From contig CADAYD010000016.1 in NCBI GenBank assembly GCA_902791985.1, forward strand, positions 1 through 38,665: a stretch of DNA of 38,665 nucleotides, in the 5' to 3' direction. Positions within the stretch are counted from its first letter, which is position 1, and every line of letters starts with the position of its first letter. Shown one piece after another: positions 26,278-38,665 of this stretch. The position numbers and the translations under genes are program-made. Source of the stretch: an uncultured bacterium. Lineage in GTDB: Bacteria > Cyanobacteriota > Vampirovibrionia > Gastranaerophilales > Gastranaerophilaceae. The notes beneath the pieces were generated by a model, which did not search any database, had not been told where the DNA came from, and saw only the letters and a list, made by a program, of their open reading frames with translations.

Positions 26278-26769
26278 TTATATAATGTATTTTTGTAAAA
26301 TAAGTTTTTTAAGAGCCTTGCCGTAAATATGGTCGGGCTCTACTTGTAATAATTTTTCGATATATTCTAAAGTTTTATGATAATCTCCAAGCTTTTTGTA
26401 TGCCGCAGCTATTGCATAGAGAGCATCTTGAAAATTCGGATCAAGCTCAATAGCTTTTTCTAAATCTTTTATTGCGTTTTCTATTTTCGGGGCTTGTATA
26501 TCTTTACGCGTTAAAATAATTTTTGCTCGATTATAATATGCATCCGTCATTTTGGGGTCAAGCTTTATAGCTTTTGAATAGTCCATCATCGCCTCGTCAT
26601 ATTCTTCCAATGAATGATAACAGGCTCCGCGATAAAAATAAGCAACCGAAAAATCATCCTTCATTTCAATAGATTTTGTAATATATTCGATTGCACTTTC
26701 AAATTTACCTCGACCAAAATCTACAATACCGTTATCCAAATAAAATTTATAATTAATCATAATATTCAT
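26278..26769 (-). CDS. Tetratricopeptide-repeat protein, 163 aa
   Basis: Probably a scaffold or adaptor binding other proteins through helical repeats. Almost the whole sequence is four TPR units, with recognisable consensus parts AYFYRGACYHSLEEYDEAMM, KAIKLDPKMTDAYYNRA, KAIELDPNFQDALYAIA and YKKLGDYHKTLEYIEKLL. There is no signal peptide or membrane span. The start is either 26769 or the ATG three codons later; no Shine-Dalgarno is visible, and a TATAAT lies very close upstream. Partner proteins cannot be deduced. Confidence 0.85.
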   Translation of the reverse strand: MNIMINYKFYLDNGIVDFGRGKFESAIEYITKSIEMKDDFSVAYFYRGACYHSLEEYDEAMMDYSKAIKLDPKMTDAYYNRAKIILTRKDIQAPKIENAIKDLEKAIELDPNFQDALYAIAAAYKKLGDYHKTLEYIEKLLQVEPDHIYGKALKKLILQKYII

Positions 26770-36899: not shown

Positions 36900-37754
36900 T
36901 TAAGGAAGCGTATCCAAAATAAATTTCCCAATTTTACCTTCTCTAAAATCTTTTAGAACATAACCGCTTGCTCGCTCAATATCAGACTCTTTATTTTTTA
37001 TTAACCATTTACGGCAAAGAGCAATATTTTCAAGTGTCAATTCATTTTGGGGAGCAAGACCATAGTATTCTTTAAAAATTTTTGTCTGATTATCATTTAA
37101 AATATTTAGTAACTCTTTCGCAACATAATCATTAGAATACGCATTATCCCCTACCGAATTAACAAACGCTAATTTTGTAGCTCGTTCCTGATCATCTTGT
37201 TTCATAGGAATAATACCGGGGGTATCTAATAACTCCAATTGCGGATTAATTCTCACCCATTGCTGTTGTCTTGTAACCCCAGCCTTTGCGCCAGTTTTGG
37301 TTTTTGATGAACGCGTCAATTTATTTATTATACTTGATTTCCCTACATTTGGCAGTCCAACAACCATAATTCTTGCAGGACGGCGTAAAAGGCCTTTAGC
37401 CATAATAGACTGTATTCTTGGTTCGGATAATGCTATTGCCTCTTTTACAATAACATTAAAGTCTTTATTAGATTTTGCACTTGTAGGAATAACTGAAATA
37501 CCGGATTCTTTTTTTAAATATTCAACAAATCTATCGAGTTCAATTTTATCAACCAAATCCGATTTATTAACAAGCAAAAAACGGGGCTTCTGATTTAGAA
37601 GTCCCGTAATATTGTCATATCTGCTTGATAGCGGTATTCTCGCATCAATCACTTCTATTACGGCATCCACGAGCGCCAGTTGTTCTTTGAGTTTTCTCTC
37701 AGCCTTGGCTATATGACCCGGATACCAGTGAATATGTGTCTTATCTTTTTTCAA
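36900..37754 (-). CDS. rbgA: Ribosome biogenesis GTPase RbgA (YlqF family)
   Basis: Circularly permuted GTPase needed for late 50S assembly. The 284 aa begin with the family signature [18 protein letters not shown]. The permuted motif order is seen: G4 LVNKSDLVD (about 60-68), G5 TSAK, then G1 GLPNVGKSS (about 137-145), G2 GVTRQQQ, and G3 DTPG. The C-terminal RNA-binding helical domain follows. It overlaps the end of rplS by 14 bases, a gene pair also seen in other bacteria (rplS with ylqF), and RbgA acts on the same subunit that L19 joins. Confidence 0.95.
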
Positions 37755-38097
37755 TTTTTTCCTTAATACGAGTAGCCTTACCTGAACGTTCTCTTAAGTA
37801 ATATAGCTTAGAACGTTTAACATCACCGCGTCTTAATACTTCAATTTTATCGATTCGCGGAGAGTTGATTAAGAATACACGTTCTACACCAACACCTTGA
37901 AATACCTTTCTTACAGTGATTGTTTTATTCAAGCCGGCACCGTGAATTTTAATAATAGTACCTTCAAATGCTTGGATTCTTTCTTTGTTACCTTCAACAA
38001 TCTTAACGAATACTTTAACAGTATCACCTGCGTTGAAAGTCGGCAAAGAATCTTTTAAATATTCTTTTTCTAATTCATCAATAACAGGGTTAATCAT
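37741..38097 (-). CDS. rplS: 50S ribosomal protein L19
   Basis: Large-subunit protein at the 30S-50S interface. The 118-aa length is typical. Conserved parts are [29 protein letters not shown] (about 19-47), [17 protein letters not shown] and the C-terminal [26 protein letters not shown]. The RBS AAAGGA precedes the ATG. It is first in a two-gene unit with rbgA and has a leader of about 105 bases from a good promoter. Confidence 0.98.
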
Positions 38098-38238: not shown

Positions 38239-38306
38239 GCAGATAAAAATAGTTTAAAGATTTGTTAAATTCAATGATTACATAAAACATATTATCTGTA
38301 CTAATG

Positions 38307-38665
38307 TTCACTTTTCTTTTTGATTGCGACGCAAAAAGAAAAGTGAACCGAAAAGAAAAACACGCTAGGGTACAATACTGCCTACGGCAGCATTAGACCG
38401 CTACGCGGTAATATGAGTTTTTGCCTGTCGGCAAAAATCTCTTAGCGCAGCTAAGGACAACGCCGCGCGCTTGCGAGATTATTATCAAAGGCGCCGTAGT
38501 CTTAGGCGCCTGATTGATTTTTGCCCGTCAGGACAAAAACGTATGAACACCTTACACTTATATCTGGTGCGCGGAGCGATGCCGTCAGGCATTGCAGTAA
38601 TTTGCGTTTTTCTCTTTCTTGGTTCGTTCTTTCTCTTTTACTCGCAATAAAAGAGAAAGAATGAA
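38307..38665. repeat. Hairpin-dense element with matching inverted ends (MITE- or BIME-like)
   Basis: A GC-richer block unlike its surroundings, with no ORF. Both ends have the same plan read inwards: TTCA, a pyrimidine-rich arm, a loop containing TTGCGA, the complementary purine arm, then GAACC, a purine run with GAAAAAC, and CGC. The left terminal hairpin (38307-38347) has a perfect 16-bp stem; the right one (38627-38661) has a perfect 14-bp stem. Inside are at least seven short hairpins: CTGCC-TAC-GGCAG (38378-38390), ACCGC-TAC-GCGGT (38397-38409), TTTTTGCC-TGTC-GGCAAAAA (38418-38437), CTTAGC-GCA-GCTAAG (38441-38455), AGGCGCC...GGCGCCT (38489-38511), TTTTTG...CAAAAA (38518-38539) and ATGCC-GTCA-GGCAT (38579-38592). 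The window ends exactly at its right terminus. Confidence 0.75.

Follow-up and report, generated by a model that had tools for sequence, protein, structure and literature searches.

Non-coding chromosomal cassettes between inverted dif-like sites in Gastranaerophilales, candidate invertible modules of the host Xer recombinases

Results

The element at the right end of the window

The window, that is, the whole stretch of DNA that was analysed (38,665 nucleotides, contig CADAYD010000016.1 of assembly GCA_902791985.1), comes from an uncultured bacterium of the Gastranaerophilaceae. Near its right end, the intergenic region upstream of a gene that we take, as read from the sequence alone, to be rplS (ribosomal protein L19) is the insertion slot of the element whose parts are listed in Table 1. 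A sequence-only reading had described 38307-38665 as a composite of nine or more hairpins, most of them perfect and with loops of 3-4 bases. Eight perfect hairpins with a stem of at least 5, plus imperfect ones, were counted there, in keeping with the number proposed, but the loop size does not hold for the end hairpins, whose loops have 9 and 7 bases. The mirror-image ends are as described, namely a long hairpin on each side whose loop contains TTGCGA, after which come GAACC and GAAAAAC, and so is the differing base composition (GC of 0.44, versus about 0.29-0.38 in the adjoining 1-2 kb). Hairpins with a stem of at least 6 number five, whereas dinucleotide shuffles average 0.73 +/- 0.80 and the remainder of the window has 1.0 for a stretch of equal length, and the single strand of the element, folded as DNA, reaches -86.4 kcal/mol (z = -8.4; equalled by 0 of 100 shuffles).

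Table 1. Positions of the element, its parts and the adjoining gene in the window.
Feature	Positions	Strand	Basis
Gene adjoining the insertion slot	37741..38097	-	
Left dif-like site	38275..38302	+	pattern and profile of 98 element ends, match to the host's likely dif, spacer rule
Left dif-like site, XerD-type arm TGATTACATAA	38275-38285		
Left dif-like site, spacer AACATA	38286-38291		
Left dif-like site, XerC-type arm TTATCTGTACT	38292-38302		
Left cap, class II intrastrand triplex motif	38306..38361	+	perfect inverted repeat and perfect mirror repeat
Left cap, pyrimidine arm	38306-38322		
Left cap, purine arm	38332-38348		
Left cap, mirror third strand GAAAAGAAAAAC	38350-38361		
Core, small hairpins	38363..38606	.	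hairpin counts, compensatory changes
Core, hairpin examples	38378-38390, 38397-38409, 38418-38437, 38441-38455, 38489-38511, 38579-38592		
Right cap, inverted triplex motif of another sequence type than the left	38608..38665	-	
Right cap, third-strand complement	38608-38620		
Right cap, arms	38623-38640 and 38648-38665		

The limits of the element are wider than first read, and its outer dif-like sites, the mirror symmetry of its caps and the inversions described below were absent from that reading. On the left it starts about 30 bp before the proposed 38307, at 38275, and among the copies compared the hairpin part has TTTACATAA-AACATA-TTATCTGTACT on either side, one inverted relative to the other. 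On the right, the contig does break in a multi-copy repeat, as had been proposed, but the end of the window is not the end of the element. Indeed, three other contigs of the host's own genome (C9, C18 and C25 of G000; other G numbers denote relatives and L numbers loci read as stretches) have the window's last 89 bases in common and then continue, with the last base of the right cap hairpin, a C that falls outside the contig end, and, in complete copies, with the inverted dif-like site. By synteny, C9 is the right neighbour of the window, since its gene beginning ATGAGCGG(A/G)GATTACAA lies beside the rplS slot in G016, G049 and G004 alike. The right site of the window copy on C9 is degenerate (ATACTATTATTTTTGTG), so this copy may be locked.

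Dif-like sites, likely host dif and Xer recombinases

A profile of 98 sites from 49 elements gave a layout of 28 bp (11-6-11) with a XerD-type arm outside, a 6-bp spacer and a XerC-type arm inside, each complete element having two such sites in inverted orientation with the XerC-type arms internal. The elements are non-coding, 114-626 bp long and mostly single. The likely dif of the host (TTTACATAATATATATTATAGGTA) agrees with the element sites at 17 of the 18 non-spacer positions compared, a match that was partly selected by the search for dif-like cores; positions that were not selected also agree with it across the 98 sites (T0 in 85%, G19 in 94% and A21 in 98%). The sequence TTTACATAATATATATTATNNGTA was found with at most two mismatches in 58 of 79 genomes of the order, usually once per genome, element sites aside. 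Not a base of the likely dif differs between G000, G044, G048 and G050, where it sits in a gene that diverges faster; in a 400-kb stretch of the relative G061, the cumulative GC skew peaks about 30 kb away from it. This single-copy conservation and skew position are the behaviour expected of a chromosomal dif, which the sequence is likely to be. In the host it is located at G000:C2:1872-1895 (L088), inside a reading frame, and across the order the gene around it has diverged by about 25%. The host genome has a single XerC-like and a single XerD-like gene, whose products score just below the XerC/XerD equivalog cut-offs and above the cut-off of the tyrosine-recombinase subfamily.

Identity of the two spacers

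Forty-six candidate elements were chosen only by inverted cores ACATAA-N6-TTAT-nnG lying 80-700 bp apart, the spacer being ignored. The spacer is the same at both ends in 41 of these 46, versus 7% in cross pairs (P ~1e-41 if copies are taken as independent, their kinship lowering the effective number). Position by position, in 45 elements, the excess identity between the two ends amounts to 0.86-1.00 at the five variable spacer positions, and in the flanks and inner arms to at most about 0.3, mostly near 0. The correlation spans the 6 bp that Xer recombinases exchange and is the strongest single piece of evidence obtained here; a homogenising process blind to the Xer cleavage points would not be expected to stop at the spacer edges.

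Copies, distribution and empty slots

The suggestion of a multi-copy repeat was borne out, with about twenty copies in the host's own genome (about 19 places, many of them at contig ends); a BLAST search of 40 genomes found copies in 14, the host's own included. Among the genome contigs searched, exact matches to a 28-base piece of the left cap are confined to metagenome-assembled genomes, which by their names come nearly all from the rumen. The element was found in neither phage nor plasmid collections, and viral contigs lacked a 28-base stretch taken from its end. Empty sites, which the same reading had predicted, were found as well, about ten insertion slots of G000 being empty in at least one of five relatives. 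The window's own slot is without the element in G049 and G016, each retaining a single dif-like site (ATTACATAA-TGCATA-TTATTTTTGTG in G016) that would be either the original target or an excision remnant. Half sites (TTAACATAA, TTTACA, TTATGTAAA) are kept in some relatives at slots C28b/C19, C21/C23 and C8a, and the empty slots C27/C25 and C4b/C18 have no dif-like sequence. Slot C8b/C10b in G049 reads ACATAATATTATGT, which resembles the mark left by a deletion between two short direct repeats belonging to the element ends. A fixed or clear target-site duplication was found at none of the about ten empty sites, in a comparison blurred by the roughly 5-25% divergence of the relatives. Mobility is supported by presence and absence between relatives; the molecular route we infer.

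The first interpretation, a MITE/BIME-like mobile repeat, therefore stands as to a mobile, multi-copy repeat, whereas its transposase-driven part finds no support. A conventional MITE that a DDE or other transposase mobilises in trans, with terminal inverted repeats resembling dif by chance, would be short and non-coding, with inverted ends, many copies and sites empty in relatives, all as observed; it is nevertheless an unlikely explanation, considering that no clear target-site duplication was seen, the close match of the ends to the host's likely dif and the restriction of end identity to the 6-bp spacer rather than to the whole inverted repeat. Moreover, the loci read contained no bigger element sharing these ends, and in them longer same-spacer inverted pairs, at 700-7000 bp and able to hold genes such as a transposase, numbered zero.

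Several slots begin right after the T-run of a terminator-like hairpin (L082:1478; L224:3807; L238:5118), which may be a safe place to insert or one that the T-rich XerD arm prefers. In G002 (L104), the gene that follows the window's slot is another one, resembling the TPR protein at 26278-26769 of the window, and slot C12b in G049 has its flanks split between two contigs (L198, on G049:C7, and G049:C1:358754); both cases are apparent chromosome rearrangements at elements.

Flipped, exchanged and mosaic cassettes

Orthologous slots, i.e. those with both flanks alignable between species, were compared for their contents. At L224 (G004) and L258 (G049) the same cassette lies in opposite orientation, with an interior alignment score of 422 flipped versus 86 unflipped, and the cassette is also flipped between L238 (G016) and L273 (G004) (170 flipped versus 30 unflipped, with flanks at 96% and 93.5%). 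L071/L187 is a probable third flipped slot, and L287/L290 has a low interior score. Other orthologous slots hold unflipped cassettes (L061/L300, L082/L083, L230/L259) or largely unrelated ones (L142/L065, L289/L293, L032/L084). In principle, the assembly choice made at a short inverted repeat could mimic an inversion, these being draft genomes, one per species.

Replication template switching at the inverted repeat of 16-19 bp could also flip cassettes. Indeed, a passive palindromic repeat, which RecA-independent template switching would flip, homogenise and delete without any dedicated recombinase, would agree with the near-perfect inverted ends, which favour such switching, and with the apparent deletion scar in G049. 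Template switching should not confine identity to the spacer, however, and the sharp end of homogenisation at the spacer edges, together with the spread to new sites and the match to dif, which this process leaves unexplained, makes it quite improbable.

Other hairpin modules were observed in the same kind of slots (L039, L043, L008, L187), reading GACCGCTTTCTTTG... and GGCACTTTTG...CAAAAGTGCC, and the cassettes look like mosaics of several module types. G009 has another cassette family (L065, L291-L293), with ends TTAGGGGTAAATAT and TTATCCGCAGGATA, whose slot flanks match those of cassettes in other species. L250 holds two elements (at 217 and 4825) with the same spacer AAAATA, 4.6 kb apart, and the stretch between them is possibly a D-type module arrangement.

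Triplex-capable caps and core hairpins

In each cap, the purine arm of the end hairpin recurs as a mirror copy beyond a 6-base loop (arm/mirror pairs CAAAAAGAAAAG/GAAAAGAAAAAC, AAAAGAGAAAGAA/AAGAAAGAGAAAA, CAAAAGAAAAGAAA/AAAGAAAAGAAAAC and others). Pyrimidine arm, purine arm and mirror purine third strand is the order of class II intrastrand triplexes (PMC4666352), and by their sequence the caps are candidate triplexes of this class. There are several sequence types of cap, and inverted and mirror symmetry are retained in all of them. A scan with 11-base arms and one mismatch allowed found at least one motif in 38 of the 49 elements, for a total of 56 motifs, 54 of which lie in the outer half of the element and point inward; in 438 kb of control sequence, made up of 400 kb from a relative and the rest of the window, the same scan found no motif. 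A scan with 8-base arms was set aside, as its loop limits exclude the true cap geometry. Since 11 of the 49 elements are without a motif by the 11-base-arm scan, the feature common to all elements is the dif-like pair rather than the triplex.

In the core, double compensatory changes were found at 9 of 56 consensus pairs over 14 copies; most are Watson-Crick double changes, with few G-U steps, as expected if pairing at the DNA level is the pairing that matters. A structured RNA or regulatory element repeated by chance, the former having been among the first proposals, would account for conserved hairpins with compensatory changes. It is highly improbable, given the few G-U intermediates, an interior that flips relative to the neighbouring genes between species, cassette contents that differ at orthologous slots, and an Rfam search in which a tRNA was the only match in the window and no family matched the element.

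The very strong fold, the covariation of the hairpins, the complementarity of the end spacers in nearly every copy and the half sites at some empty slots all suit a single-strand integration of the CTX-phi kind, in which the cassette would fold, its annealed ends would form a duplex dif-like site and XerC would insert it into dif-like or half sites. As the main reaction this is doubtful: the XerC-type arms are complementary between the ends only at conserved bases, which would leave the annealed site mismatched, a phage or plasmid carrier was not found in the collections searched, and the inversions are not explained by it alone. It overlaps the Xer-based interpretation developed below, where it could tentatively serve as the path of the integration step.

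Discussion

Comparison with known systems

The closest resemblance is to the C-modules of the dif (pdif) systems of Acinetobacter, which likewise have inverted 11-6-11 Xer sites with XerC arms inside (PMC13141974, PMC12907356); in the XerC arm, for example, TTATACGAAAT in Acinetobacter and TTATCGGTAGT here agree in a G and an A at matching inner positions. Both systems also share inversions between sites whose spacers are identical. Indeed, such pdif sites invert experimentally, and their recombination in vivo needs XerC (PMC13141974). The Acinetobacter modules differ in carrying genes, being found for the most part on Rep_3 plasmids or in module islands of the chromosome, and alternating between C and D types, whereas the cassettes described here, in another phylum, are non-coding, 0.1-0.6 kb long, mostly single, dispersed over the chromosome and usually triplex-capped. 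Being non-coding and mostly single, without the gene cargo and C/D alternation of Acinetobacter, they would work like dif modules yet are a variant outside the standard type.

Integrative elements of the IMEX type, e.g. CTX-phi, whose attP consists of two palindromic sites on folded single-stranded DNA, also combine a dif-like site with host XerC/XerD (PMC5357621), the use of Xer here being the proposed counterpart; they are gene-bearing elements of kilobase size that enter the chromosomal dif, in contrast to the many copies away from dif found here. The TM-ECO/PIT triplex motifs of E. coli have the same pyrimidine-purine-mirror purine order, are intergenic and strain-variable, and some of their pairs are inverted and face each other, but they are G/C-rich (PMC4666352); the origin of intrastrand triplex repeats is left unexplained in that study. 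The E. coli G/C-rich repeats read here (L276, L277, L279) are also convergent pairs with the same architecture as the caps. Dif-like flanks around TM-ECO were considered and rejected, six stretches (five distinct gene contexts) scoring 11-15 of 22 and shuffles a mean of 12.2 and a maximum of 15. REP/BIME and MITE, which move by TnpA-REP and DDE transposases, respectively, are likewise short intergenic palindromic repeats; for the cassettes, neither a clear target duplication at the empty sites nor a longer same-ended element in the loci read was found. Literature searches returned nothing directly comparable on dif-like miniature or invertible elements in Gastranaerophilales, and in none of the papers found are triplex repeats connected with a mobile element.

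Proposed mechanism

On the sequence evidence, the element is best read as a non-coding chromosomal cassette between two inverted dif-like sites, usually triplex-capped inside, and it is probable that such cassettes are invertible 'mini dif modules' worked by the host XerC/XerD, Xer catalysis and integration at new sites being deduced. XerC and XerD of the host would pair both sites and exchange strands within the spacer, which would flip the cassette and keep its spacers matched. Less often, recombination that joins sites of different copies, or that takes place at dif-like sites or half-sites, would move, swap or delete cassettes and rearrange the chromosome. The hairpin or triplex caps may aid folding of the single strand and thereby bring the ends together, the least certain step. 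Integration would likewise be the presumed step, as not every empty site holds a dif-like sequence.

A more far-reaching proposal, which we offer only tentatively, is that of a class of gene-less chromosomal mobile DNA that would live on the enzymes of chromosome dimer resolution and fold via triplex-capped single strands to integrate, flip and swap at persistent slots; such a class could explain the origin of bacterial intrastrand triplex repeats.

Significance

The cassettes extend dif-module-like elements well beyond Acinetobacter and link triplex repeats with a mobile element. If Xer recombination is active at sites scattered over a chromosome, rearrangement of that chromosome is to be expected, and here dozens of dif-like sites per genome are seemingly in use, with the spacer as an 'address' deciding which of them may pair. 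It thereby becomes testable how a cell tolerates and regulates Xer sites besides dif, and the cassettes may be an engine of chromosome rearrangement in Gastranaerophilales.
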